A DNA stretch of 64,000 nucleotides, from positions 2,301,001-2,365,000 of the forward strand of contig NC_092673.1 in the NCBI RefSeq assembly GCF_964355755.1. The letters run 5' to 3'. The position numbers and the translations under genes are program-made. The notes beneath the pieces were generated by a model that did no database searches, was not told where the DNA came from, and saw only the letters and a list, made by a program, of their open reading frames with translations. Numbering within the stretch: the stretch's first letter is position 1; every line of letters starts with the position of its first letter. Source of the stretch: Antedon mediterranea (Eukaryota > Echinodermata > Crinoidea > Comatulida > Antedonidae). Below are positions 13,470-63,762 of the stretch, piece by piece.

Positions 13470-54815
<41,346 letters not shown>

Positions 54816-59324: not shown

Positions 59325-59542
59325 TAAAGCTCTGTCTACACTATCAAACTTTACGCAACAAAAAATGTGATGTGCCCAAATATGATTGATTGATTGAAAT
59401 ATATATTTATACTGGGTAACCTCTTCAGTCAATGACTGGTCTCCCAGAGGACCCAGTATGGTAGTGATATGACATCATCATCATGTCCATATATAGGCAC
59501 ATCACACTTTTGTCACAAAGTTTGATAGTGTAGACACTGCTT
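59325..59542. mobile_element. MITE-1, copy 7, with nested SINE-A fragment
   Basis: Ends AAAGCTCTGTCTACAC and GTGTAGACACTGCTT. The interior is interrupted at CAAATATG by 59384-59456. Confidence 0.88.
59384..59456 (-). mobile_element. SINE-A 3' fragment nested in MITE-1
   Basis: (GATT)n, AAATATATATTTATACTGGG, then CTCCCAGAGGACCCAGT: only the 3' end of SINE-A, so a 5'-truncated insertion into an older MITE. Confidence 0.9.
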
Positions 59543-59974: not shown

Positions 59975-60145
59975 CTACCTAGCACTTTTTTCTTTTACTT
60001 GTAACCTCTCTTCCTCATCTGTAACATTATCTTCATTTTTTGCAGTTTCCTCTGTCATTGTTTCTGTTGTGTCTATATTTTGTTTGTCTGCTGAACTAGT
60101 AGGTATTTCCAATGCTTTAGAGTCTGTATCTGACTTCTCTTCCAT
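59975..60145 (-). CDS. PUS1: PUS1 exon I (last coding exon)
   Basis: The acceptor AATCTTCTAG, then [20 protein letters not shown] to LQVKEKSAR and TAG at 59977-59975, 57 codons with stop. Highly charged, Glu/Thr-rich and not conserved, but in phase with exon H and starting at a consensus acceptor. Confidence 0.85.
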   Translation of the reverse strand: MEEKSDTDSKALEIPTSSADKQNIDTTETMTEETAKNEDNVTDEEERLQVKEKSAR

Positions 60146-63100
60146 CTAGAAGATTAAATAAAAGTTTATTATTTATTTACAAGAAATTTGATTTGTTGGA
60201 AACTATTCCTAAAGCTCTGTCTACACTATAAAACTTTATGTGATGTGCCCTTATATGGACATGATGTTGTCATATCACTACCATATTTGGGCAGATCAAA
60301 TTAGTTTGATAGTGTAGACAGAACTTTACACTCTGTCATCATTCAGGTAATAATAGGTAATAATAAAATAGAGGTCACAGGAATTTTAACTCGGGGTACC
60401 CGAGTCTAGGACTCTCTCATCTTCTCCTCTTCCATTTCCTCCATCTGGACACTATTGAGTAAAAAGTGCGATTTATAAAGTGCTACTCCTCCCTTATTCG
60501 TAGTAGTATTGAGCTGGGATTTGGCATGAATATACTACAGGGACATGTCCTCAAAGCTATAGAGCCGGATTTTTAAATTTCAAACAGGATGCAGCCATAT
60601 CACGTCTCGAAGATGGTACCGTATTAGGTAGCTGATTTTGATGTGTATGTGACGTCATCCCGTCTTATGACGTCATTACAGCTTCTTTTGCTGTACCCCG
60701 AGTATCGCACATTCGTACTTGTTTAAACAAATACCACCCAACTACAATTTTTTTCTAAAACAAATAACCACCAAATAATAGAGGGCACTATTTAAATAAA
60801 GTTGGCAGGTATACCATGGATGTGTGAACTTCTTGCAAGTCTTTCTTAGCCTTTATCAGCTTTCCCCCTAATGATGTATTTGCATAACTGTGATATAGTA
60901 GTGTTCCTAGCCATGTCATCATACTAGTATAAAACTATTAAGAAAAACAATATTGGTCAGATGTGCTTGCGAAAAAATTACCATAGTAGCATTTTGGTAT
61001 TTTTCTTATTTATTTTTTATTTTATACGCATCCTAAAGCGAGTAACCCGCCAATTACAGGATGGATAAACTATTTAATAATTTATAAGCTACGTATCATT
61101 TGAGGCTTAGGAAGTGGAGTTGAAAGAGTCGAGAGTTACAACCCTAACACTAGGTCAGGATTGAACCCCCGACCTTGGGATTGGAAGGCAAGTACATTAA
61201 CCACTAAGCTACAGCTCCACTAAAAACAATACACAAATAGAAATATTGTATGAAGGATACGTATTCTCTGCCTTCTCTGTTGATATAATTGTTGGATAGA
61301 TGAAATCTGTTTTAAAGGCTTCTACTTTATCCTGAAATTATCAAAGAAAAGTCAACAAAATATTTATTAGAAAATAAGATGATATAAAAATTGCGTGTTC
61401 AACATGAATTTTATAGTTTGCATCCTCCTCTCAATGTAGGCTGTAAATGTAGACTCTCTGCCAATCTCCCTAATCCTAAAGGCTTATTTACACAGAAGAG
61501 TGGTAACGGTAACACAAATATAAATGTTATTCCTTATGACCATTTCCAAACAACACTGGCGGTTTCTGCTTCTAAGTAGGACAAGCTACGCGGTTTTCCT
61601 ACTTACAATTACCACCTGTCATAAAATGCTACCATAGACACTATTTATTCTCAATACTGTAATTTCAGCTTTGATGTGTCTCTGGTCTAATTCCTTATAT
61701 TCAATCTATGTTAGACCTTAGTGGAGAAATTATGTTCCAAAAATGGGAAAGAGATGTCAGTATATACCAAGTAAAGTAATTTGTTAAACATACCTTACTC
61801 TCGTCCCATGTCAAAGCTTCATGCATTCCATCGCTCCCCCATTTTTCATTATAATGATCATAGTGCACCTGTAGTTTCATTCAAAAATAATAAGTTTTTA
61901 ATTTTATTTATTATTTAAAAAAATACTGTCATCTGATAGTTTTGTTTACCTTATAGTGATTTGAATCAAAGTTATGCACAGCAGAATTAGTTCATTTATA
62001 GTAAAATGTACAAGAATTTTTGAAATTGTTATTTTATTTATACTGGGTAACCTCTTCAGTCAAAGACTGGTCTCCCAGAGGGCCCAGATATGATCCGTGG
62101 CTTTGAGTGTACTAGTACACCGGGGTGACCCCCTACTCATCTCGAATGATGTACTAGTTTCTATAAAGTGCACATGAGCTAGATGCGTACACTGGACCTA
62201 CGGTTTGTAGTCCTTATCCGAGAAGACTTGTTCTACCACCAGAACCATGGAGCGAGTGAGCCTTGACATAAGTTTGTGAAATGAAAACTAGTATTAACCA
62301 CATTAAGCAACACACTCCTCAGATTTGGTGTAAGGTTCAAATCTGTAAAATTATTATTCGCAGGTTTTAGTGTATGGACTGAACTGGAAATAATACTCAC
62401 ACTTTCAAGGACTAGGCCAAGACCTGGGGCCTTTGGAATGTCTAACTTATCTTCTTCGAAGGCCTTGTTTATTACTGATTCATGTGCCAGGCCTCTCACC
62501 ACAGCTAATATTAAGCCTGTTAAAGAAACAGGAAATGGTGTTATAACATATAGCCTACAGTAAAAAGACTGTTCTAAAAGTTAAAATTCTCCTATCTAAC
62601 TGAACACCATTTAAGGGGTTCAAATTTGACATGTGTATTGACTTAAGTGAAATACATAGTATTTGAGGGAAATATCCCACTTAAAAAATATCTTTCATGT
62701 TTGTAGTTTGTACAACTATTTCATCTGACATAAGATGCATTTATTCTCCTATATATACTACTGCAATCAAGATTTATTTTTTCGAGTATTGATGGGTGAA
62801 TAATGACTAGAAATATTAGGTTCAATAGTAACATGTTCTTATATATATGTTATTTAACCCATGACCTCACAATACGATGGTGAATAAAGAAAAACATCGG
62901 GAATTCCCCTTGCACTTACCAACCATCTTTCTGATTTGATGAAGCATAAAGCTTTGACCTCTGACCTTTAAGATCGAGAACTCCAATCCATCTTGTATGA
63001 ATGGTTTGTTACATGAGAAATCTTTTATATAACGAAAAGCACTTGGGTCGTTGAATTTTCTGTGGGAAATAACAAATATTTATATATAAACAGTTTTTTT

Positions 63101-63762
63101 ATCAGTGATTTTTTTTTACTCATTATAATTGAATAAATTATATTAACTTACTTGCCCGATGTAAAATTATGAAAATTCTTTGAACCATGGTAATATTTAA
63201 GTAAACTGTTTACTCTGTCAATAGTTTCATCTGCAATACAAACAATATAAATTATAATCAATTACAGTGTGTATATAGAAGCATTTAATTTATATTTTTT
63301 CAAACTTAGCCCCAAACAAATTTTAAGTATAATCCAACACCACTTGCATACAATTGTCGAGAGAACGGTTGTACACAAGCACCCTAGGAAAAAACGTACA
63401 GTCATTCCTTGTGGATGACGGCCATCACGCAAAGCATAGGTCACGAATAGGAAAGTAAAACACCTACCATTTGATCTATACGCTTCTACAACGATTTCTT
63501 CTGCTGGTGAAAACGCAAAAGTCGGGCAAACATAAATATATGTTCGCATTCCACACTCACGTCGAGAATCAAATCTACCCATTGTTCTCTTGATATCTAG
63601 ACATTCAATGTAAACAATAAGAAATTGGTTTACCTTTGACTCGAAATGCGTCGGTAGTGAATTGTTCGATGGGCTGGAAAGCGAAGGTAGGAGTCATGTA
63701 TGAATATGTACGGTAGTCGCAGCGATTTTTACTGTCGAAACTGTTGATCACTCGTTTATAAT
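59975..63762 (-). CDS. PUS1: PUS1, tRNA pseudouridine synthase (3' part, nine exons incl. a duplicated pair)
   Basis: Coding exons in order: 63762-63634 (A), 63596-63468 (B), 63230-63152, 63059-62920, 62516-62401, 61868-61794, 61331-61261, 60923-60815 and 60145-59975. Starting with A or B, phases close through to TAG. The product isomerises uridine to pseudouridine in tRNAs (TruA/PUS1 family). Diagnostic blocks are [48 protein letters not shown] and [10 protein letters not shown], each with a direct counterpart in human PUS1. The exon with the catalytic Asp (ARTDKG motif) lies right of the window. The C-terminal 56 residues are acidic, Thr/Glu-rich and unconserved. PUS1 is convergent with CtBP. 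Confidence 0.95.
60146..60814. other. PUS1 intron H-I
   Basis: 669 bp containing a MITE-1 copy (60210-60330) and otherwise unremarkable sequence with an unusual run of ACGTCAT-like CRE half-sites near 60650 (GTGACGTCATCCCGTC, ATGACGTCATTAC). Confidence 0.75.
60210..60330. mobile_element. MITE-1, copy 8
   Basis: AAAGCTCTGTCTACACTATA at the left, GATAGTGTAGACAGAACTTT at the right. The interior is shortened to 80 bp. Confidence 0.9.
60815..60923 (-). CDS. PUS1: PUS1 exon H
   Basis: The acceptor TTTATACTAG completes a Thr codon, then [20 protein letters not shown] and [16 protein letters not shown], with the donor GTATAC. The start resembles human SMAQWLSTLPIHNFSAT; the rest is lineage-specific and basic. 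Confidence 0.85.
60924..61260. other. PUS1 intron G-H
   Basis: 337 bp, mostly the SINE-C copy. Confidence 0.8.
61035..61222 (-). mobile_element. SINE-C, tRNA-derived
   Basis: On the minus strand GCTGTAGCTTAGTGGTTAATG (A-box-like) is followed 40 bp later by GGGGGTTCAATCC (B box). The tRNA-unlike body then reaches an AT-rich tail with CGGGTTACTCGC. Single copy in the window. Confidence 0.65.
61261..61331 (-). CDS. PUS1: PUS1 exon G
   Basis: The acceptor AATTTCAG, then [20 protein letters not shown] and AEN plus two bases. It matches human [20 protein letters not shown]. The donor GTATCC is weak (C at +5), but it is the only position giving the correct phase into exon H. Confidence 0.88.
61332..61793. 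other. PUS1 intron F-G
   Basis: 462 bp, AT-rich. The plus-strand 62-codon frame at 61391-61579 has no recognisable feature. Confidence 0.75.
61794..61868 (-). CDS. PUS1: PUS1 exon F
   Basis: The acceptor AACTACAG, then [19 protein letters not shown] and TWDESK, with the donor GTATGT. Human has [20 protein letters not shown] in the same place. Phase 0 on both sides. Confidence 0.95.
61869..62400. other. PUS1 intron E-F
   Basis: 532 bp, nearly half of it a SINE-A copy (62030-62268). Confidence 0.85.
62030..62268 (-). mobile_element. SINE-A, copy 7
   Basis: TATACTGGGTAACCTCTTCAG, ACCGGGGTGACCCCCTACTC, TACACTGGACCTACGG and CTACCACCAGAACCATGGAG. Truncated inside the tRNA-like head. Confidence 0.9.
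62401..62516 (-). CDS. PUS1: PUS1 exon E
   Basis: The acceptor TTCTTTAACAG, then [20 protein letters not shown] and [18 protein letters not shown], with the donor [16 protein letters not shown] is identical in human PUS1. The open frame continuing past the donor is read-through. Confidence 0.95.
62517..62919. other. PUS1 intron D-E
   Basis: 403 bp, no recognised repeat or conserved motif. Confidence 0.75.
62920..63059 (-). CDS. PUS1: PUS1 exon D
   Basis: The acceptor TTTCCCACAG, then [32 protein letters not shown] and [14 protein letters not shown], with the donor GTAAGT. [14 protein letters not shown] is among the most conserved PUS1 segments. Confidence 0.96.
63152..63230 (-). CDS. PUS1: PUS1 exon C
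   Basis: The acceptor TGTATTGCAG, then [26 protein letters not shown], and the donor GTAAGT, phase 2 out. Matches human [20 protein letters not shown] followed by NFTSQK. The Gly-(Ser/Thr)-(Lys/His)-Asn-Phe motif is a TruA-family hallmark. Confidence 0.95.
63231..63467. other. PUS1 intron between exon B and the FHNFTS exon
   Basis: 237 bp; contains no recognised repeat. Any competing splice elements controlling exon choice would be expected here, but none were identified by eye. Confidence 0.7.
63468..63596 (-). CDS. PUS1: PUS1 exon B (diverged tandem duplicate)
   Basis: The acceptor TGAATGTCTAG and donor GTAGGT bracket exactly 129 nt with the same phases as exon A. It reads [20 protein letters not shown] then [20 protein letters not shown]. 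About 20 of 43 residues match exon A; RTYxY and PTFAF are kept while SKNRCD becomes SRRECG. No stop or frameshift, so it is under constraint or recent. Probably used instead of exon A. Confidence 0.85.
63597..63633 (-). other. 37-nt spacer between the duplicated exons
   Basis: Starts GTAAAC and ends TGTCTAG, so formally a GT-AG intron, but shorter than most metazoan introns that can be spliced. Such spacing is a known steric cause of mutually exclusive splicing. Confidence 0.85.
63634..63762 (-). CDS. PUS1: PUS1 exon A (ancestral-type duplicate)
   Basis: The acceptor TTCGCCATAG and donor GTAAAC bracket 129 nt (2 + 42 codons + 1). It reads [20 protein letters not shown] then [20 protein letters not shown]. 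It keeps the SKNRCD and RTYxY residues seen in human PUS1 ([21 protein letters not shown]), so it is taken as the conventional exon. Confidence 0.95.

Follow-up and report, generated by a model that had tools for sequence, protein, structure and literature searches.

The PUS1 gene of the crinoid Antedon mediterranea most probably contains two mutually exclusive alternatives of exon 4, here termed A and B, which stem from an old tandem duplication and exclude each other by steric interference. The duplication itself probably took place in the crinoid lineage. Exon 3 would be joined to one of the two, A or B, and this one to the following exon C. Two full-length PUS1 proteins would be formed, differing solely in 42 residues, a β-hairpin plus loops beside the active site. 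Between A's donor and B's branch point there would be 16-23 nt, too little for U1 and U2 snRNPs to share the 37-nt spacer that separates the two exons. This closeness would block the joining of A to B, and use of A's donor would compete with use of B's branch point. Retention of the spacer would result in a premature stop. Three elements of this scheme are what we infer: that Antedon uses B, that A-B joining is blocked sterically, and that a signal governs the choice.

The PUS1 gene of Antedon mediterranea

The DNA examined here, the window, is a stretch of 64,000 nt from Antedon mediterranea (Crinoidea, Antedonidae; positions 2301001-2365000 of NC_092673.1). PUS1 is located on the minus strand. 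An exact spliced alignment of protein versus DNA with a GT/GC-AG exon model gives 11 coding exons for the Antedon isoform X1. Exons 1 through 3 are outside the window, just past its end (65704-65552, 65315-65218 and 64847-64618 on the window scale). Exon 4A (129 nt, 63634..63762) is present in the public isoform X1. It is followed by the 37-nt spacer (63597..63633; GTAAACC...GTCTAG), which holds the acceptor of B and two branch-point candidates, and by exon 4B (129 nt, 63468..63596), with B-type sequence in isoform X2 of another crinoid, Anneissia japonica. A 237-nt intron (63231..63467) leads to exon C, i.e., exon 5, the common acceptor exon (63152..63230). The spliced alignment further places exon 6 (...QIRKMV) at 62920..63059, exon 7 at 62401..62516, exon 8 at 61794..61868, exon 9 at 61261..61331, exon 10 at 60815..60923, and the last coding exon with the stop at 59975..60145.

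The public Antedon protein, 'pseudouridylate synthase 1 homolog isoform X1', corresponds to exon 3-A-C with B skipped. Exon B is thus situated inside what isoform X1 treats as a 403-nt intron from A to C. With exons 4-9 as query no second PUS1 locus was found as a possible origin of B; all seven matches (7/7) fall in this gene. A tblastn search of 20 kb with seven PUS1 proteins revealed no credible third copy of exon 4, its two matches outside the PUS1 gene having E values of 0.38 and 0.92. No known RNA family was detected in the window at gathering thresholds.

Some features of the gene and its surroundings may be mentioned. Exon 1 starts with MLRK... and has a second Met about 20 residues later, as it does in Anneissia; we take this to resemble the mitochondrial/nuclear double start of human PUS1. 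An open frame with a 2-Hacid_dh_C domain (window 54141-54815, plus strand) presumably is CtBP, a neighbour gene of PUS1. Intron 3 of PUS1 contains a short MITE-like element (L002:1364-1542) in which inverted repeats (CTGTCTACACTATCAAACT and its complement) are nested, with a perfect inner palindrome of 26 nt. A 19-mer of this element recurs in the window at 59332, 60303, and 13335.

Homology and age of exons A and B

Exons A and B both have an AG before and a GT after, and both frames are open. They share their phases: entry is after one base and exit with one base, in either case of a split Asp codon (G|AT). An earlier, sequence-only reading of this DNA, which had reported two adjacent 129-nt exons with identical phases, open frames, and a 37-nt spacer, is correct to the base. 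Its estimate of about 20 identical residues out of 43 is borne out as well: 19 of the 42 fully encoded residues are identical, 20/43 when the shared split-codon Asp is included. The motifs RTYxY and PTFAF are common to A and B, SKNRCD is found in A and SRRECG in B; the translations contain all of them as that reading had claimed.

The similarity is far from random. Not one of 200,000 shuffles of B reached 19 identities with A; the maximum was 12. We also scanned both strands of 178.5 kb for pairs of equally long AG-open-GT stretches which possess a positive protein score and a DNA identity of at most 62%. The A/B pair ranks first of 16 matches, and the second match is a part of the same pair. 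Shuffles and pair scan reject a chance open frame as an explanation of B. A naive exon-pair scan with no limit on DNA identity is filled by near-identical repeats such as those of L003. The latter are arranged in tandem at about 1710-2200, would read GYTLSLSPNPLLPNHVEDPEGGGTV... in translation, and are probably non-coding. A recent DNA repeat is likewise rejected as an explanation of B.

When A and B are compared codon by codon, codon positions 1, 2, and 3 agree at 22, 25, and 12 of 42 sites, and only 3 of the 19 identical residues use the same codon. dN is 0.62 (NG86) and dS is not computable due to saturation. Shuffle test, codon-position pattern, scarcity of shared codons, saturation of dS, and scan rank taken together argue that the similarity of A and B reflects protein constraint over saturated silent sites, i.e., judged from the DNA the duplication appears to be old and not a recent repeat.

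The spacer and its splice signals

Branch points were predicted by scanning for the motif yUnAy. Two candidate branch-point adenines for exon B lie in the spacer (minus strand). The one at 63618 (CTTAT) is 16 nt from A's donor and 22 nt upstream of B; the one at 63611 (TTTAC) is 23 nt from A's donor and 15 nt upstream of B. No AG is present between these candidates and the acceptor of B. A third match, 62 nt upstream of B and past two intervening AGs, falls within exon A.

Two reports put the steric limit for the distance from donor (5'ss) to branch point at about 50 nt (PMC5740500, PMC7969005). At 16 and 23 nt both predicted candidates are well below this distance, the mark of steric interference. 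The sequence-only reading had regarded the spacer as a steric block of A-B joining. Its length indeed falls below the published limit; the block itself we infer. In a survey table of human ultra-short introns, as far as the accessible part of the source goes, candidates of 37 and 41 nt are listed as 'expressed', i.e., detected without being spliced, and the shortest one listed as 'spliced' has 43 nt (PMC4463651). The 37-nt spacer is probably too short for removal by the spliceosome. As human introns of 43 nt are removed, a block does not strictly follow from a length of 37 nt.

Splicing of A to B would stay in frame, and a retained 37-nt spacer introduces an in-frame stop. The spacer can fold into a weak hairpin, not better than those of shuffled sequences (z -0.29), which rejects a hairpin hiding A's donor. 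Upstream pyrimidines number 13/17 for A versus 10/17 for B, and the donor scores are 3.9 bits for B versus 3.4 for A. The stronger pyrimidine stretch of A and the slightly stronger donor of B leave room for regulation.

Intron lengths elsewhere in Antedon

How short is 37 nt by the standards of this animal? All 10 PUS1 introns of Antedon have at least 92 nt according to the spliced alignment. Estimates from profile matches gave 34 intervals in CCT genes, all at least 114 nt, and 11 in myosin genes, all at least 123 nt. Within these 10, 34, and 11 intervals, a sample of three gene sets and not of the genome, the shortest estimate besides the tandem pairs is 92 nt. The CCT set comprises 56 of 60 rows, and one of its 34 intervals (479 nt) skips an exon. 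The myosin set comprises 48 of 81 rows, leaving out 31 rows of an array on contig C3, one of C1 and one of C2; two of its 11 intervals run to a tandem pair. Intervals from profile matches miss introns which are bridged within one match. When all 60 CCT rows were checked for bridging, four rows with stops carried an excess of 117-210 nt, i.e., the match bridges an intron, and four open rows carried an excess of 21-54 nt, taken for coding insertions. In the one myosin row looked at in this way, the match overran into an intron.

Tandem homologous exons of a myosin head are located at C1:19159516-19159821 (L012:7516-7821; profile 107-152, ...EAFGNAKT.RNDNSSRF) and are separated by an 84-nt spacer. 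By their sequence they are likely to represent a further mutually exclusive pair. The 84-nt spacer indicates that short spacing is not required for tandem exon pairs in this genome. In the myosin gene the apparent gap of 39 nt between two matches had suggested a second tight pair; the DNA gives the 84-nt spacer. Two exons of a CCT gene that had looked like a tandem pair turned out, upon reading of the DNA, to be successive and not homologous. On contig C3, between 19.6 and 25.1 Mb, nineteen matches to one myosin-head stretch (profile about 342-408), one of them with a stop, spread over about 5.5 Mb, which suggests a large myosin array.

Exon 4 in the protein

The catalytic Asp in ARTDKG is encoded by exon 3 and is hence common to the A and B forms. 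Exon B, set against the alignment columns by its own sequence, retains all seven exon-4 residues which are invariant over 40 PUS1 proteins (an alignment of 40 of 208). Y180 and R178, which belong to these seven, occur in all three crinoid exons, A, B, and that of Anneissia. By a hand count on the alignment Y180 equals Y201 of hPus1 and R178 equals yeast residue 188. Y201 is named among the active-site residues of hPus1 in PMC3983220, and in PMC10631681 yeast residue 188 is the last of the first RNA-contact cluster. At nearly invariant positions A has Ile instead of Thr at 166, whereas B has Met at 166 and Arg instead of Lys at 172; in the Anneissia exon 166 is Met and 172 is Trp.

The A form of Antedon and the B form of Anneissia were modelled with AlphaFold at a mean pLDDT of 82.3 and 81.4, respectively. 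In these models exon 4 comprises two β-strands (157-164 and 177-185, Antedon numbering), the loop between them, and a loop thereafter. The differences between A and B are found in the hairpin loop (11 residues) and in the stretch after PTFAF. Compared with human PUS1 chains by Foldseek, both models have target TM-scores of 0.90-0.95, and Pfam PF01416 is present in the Antedon X1 and Anneissia X2 proteins. The active-site Tyr is within the exon; the sequence-only reading had assigned this segment to the catalytic fold. Both modelled forms should be active enzymes.

The B-type exon in Anneissia japonica

Anneissia japonica is a crinoid of another family, Comatulidae. Its public PUS1 protein is designated 'isoform X2' and, as seen in the protein, carries a B-type exon between the counterparts of exon 3 and exon C. 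Its exon-4 stretch is identical to Antedon B at 24 of 42 positions versus 17 of 42 for Antedon A. M166, R173, and A192 are shared by Antedon B and Anneissia and are missing at these positions in A and in the 20 other homologues compared. This comparison used 21 of 208 listed proteins with rows anchored on RTY and no gaps; vertebrate and insect rows have one extra residue after PTFAF, which puts their final third out of register by one position and lowers their counts. The Antedon A form and the Anneissia protein are 92% identical in exon 3 and 85% in exon 5, but 42% in exon 4. The dip in exon 4 thus indicates that each database protein has a different exon of the pair.

A tree of exon 4 groups B with Anneissia (support 99/96). 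A grouping of A with Anneissia is rejected (p-AU 0.030), as is a grouping of A with B with the same p-AU of 0.030. The tree was calculated with LG+G4 (mixture off) from 20 rows, i.e., A, B, and 18 of the 21 compared proteins (P0127, P0131, and P0008 left out), and 42 columns; 4 of its 17 internal branches are starred. A single clade of the three crinoid exons is not rejected (p-AU 0.27), and because of this a crinoid origin of the A/B duplication is possible on the basis of these alignments.

Judging from the two crinoid database proteins, A-type and B-type exons both appear to be in use, a single one in each protein, and the B-type sequence appears to be conserved. For the claim of mutually exclusive splicing this means that A without B is seen in Antedon X1 and B-type without A in Anneissia X2; the use of B by Antedon itself is presumed. 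Of the exon pair that the sequence-only reading had proposed to look for in related echinoderms, the B-type half is present in Anneissia isoform X2, a protein with no A-type exon. The 90% cluster of each of the two species has two member sequences. The A and B forms of Antedon PUS1 would be 95% identical, hence would be united in one 90% cluster. Two members per cluster are as expected with both isoforms; a difference elsewhere, e.g., at the N-terminus, is possible. A protein search with the B region, which covered cluster representatives only, gave no match at E <= 10, not even the Anneissia protein. This is expected if B forms hide behind A representatives, and equally if they are absent from the collection.

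Alternative explanations

Could each species have settled on a single exon? After a duplication in early crinoids, A would now be used in Antedon and B in Anneissia, and Antedon B would be a recently silenced relic. The proteins at hand fit, A alone being seen in that of Antedon and B-type alone in that of Anneissia, and the identity of the two B exons is modest (24/42). The B-type exon diverges faster between the crinoids than its neighbours (24/42 versus 92% for exon 3 and 85% for exon 5), which also fits relaxed constraint. However, Antedon B is open, its AG/GT borders and phases are intact, it has kept the seven invariant residues, and its donor is as good as that of A (3.9 versus 3.4). 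In addition, two cluster members and the numbering of the isoforms suggest more than one isoform per species. Reciprocal loss thus is unlikely. The joining of A, B, and C in one transcript, with a doubled β-hairpin and the 37 nt as a real ultra-short intron, is highly improbable. The A-B junction would be in frame, and human introns as short as 43 nt are spliced (PMC4463651), yet Antedon X1 has A without B, Anneissia X2 has the B-type exon without A, and none of the 14 PUS1 sequences compared for exon content (Antedon X1 and Anneissia X2 among them) carries both. Moreover, the other estimated intervals in Antedon are 84 nt or longer.

Regulated mutually exclusive pairs with longer introns exist. 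A and B might be alternative exons of the usual sort, selected by regulatory proteins or by RNA pairing, the short spacer being incidental. Several inverted repeats in PUS1 intron 3 and the 84-nt spacer of the myosin pair agree with such a mode of choice. Against it, the hairpin of the spacer does not surpass those of shuffled sequences (z -0.29), the strongest of the 17 inverted repeats listed are located within intron 3, and by the distance rules of PMC5740500 and PMC7969005 the spacer suffices alone. We hold an incidental spacer to be improbable.

Relation to known systems

Exclusion of homologous exons by steric interference, the reading preferred here, has precedents. A survey of human mutually exclusive exons (MXE) reports 57 steric-interference cases, 9% of human MXE clusters (PMC5740500). 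These are like the PUS1 pair in that homologous exons are adjacent and donor and branch point are less than 50 nt apart; the PUS1 spacer, however, has 37 nt, and gene and lineage are outside that survey. Exons 4a/4b of OGDH (PMC7969005) are likewise kept exclusive by branch points in the intron between them, at 25-41 nt from the 5'ss, and in OGDH an enzyme property is altered. In OGDH the branch points are unusually far from the acceptor, whereas the PUS1 candidates are 15 and 22 nt from it in a spacer of 37 nt overall. With human and yeast PUS1 (TruA family) the crinoid protein shares the fold, the catalytic Asp region, and the positions of Tyr201 (human) and Arg188 (yeast); for these enzymes titles and abstract starts of the literature disclosed no alternative exon in the catalytic core.

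The sequence-only reading knew of no described alternative of this kind in PUS1, and our searches concur. In the titles and abstract starts listed, with few subscription journals covered, no mutually exclusive exon pair of PUS1 was found, nor did one appear in the literature listed on alternative splicing in crinoids. For exon duplication in tRNA modification none was found either (few subscription journals). Steric MXE pairs are already known; the PUS1 pair apparently is undescribed, though its isoforms are implicit in public annotation.

A splice switch in the catalytic core of this crinoid enzyme might retarget pseudouridines such that the A and B forms modify different sets of tRNA or mRNA uridines. 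This is a tentative and rather doubtful idea, and the suggestion of the sequence-only reading that the forms could differ in tRNA site choice is speculative. How PUS1 chooses its uridines could be tested directly with the A/B pair, in which a single protein has its 42-residue hairpin region swapped and nothing else. With a B-type exon in two crinoid families, natural variants of a catalytic core are available from one gene. The 37-nt spacer, finally, is a very compact candidate for steric exclusion and is useful for learning how short a spacer may be.
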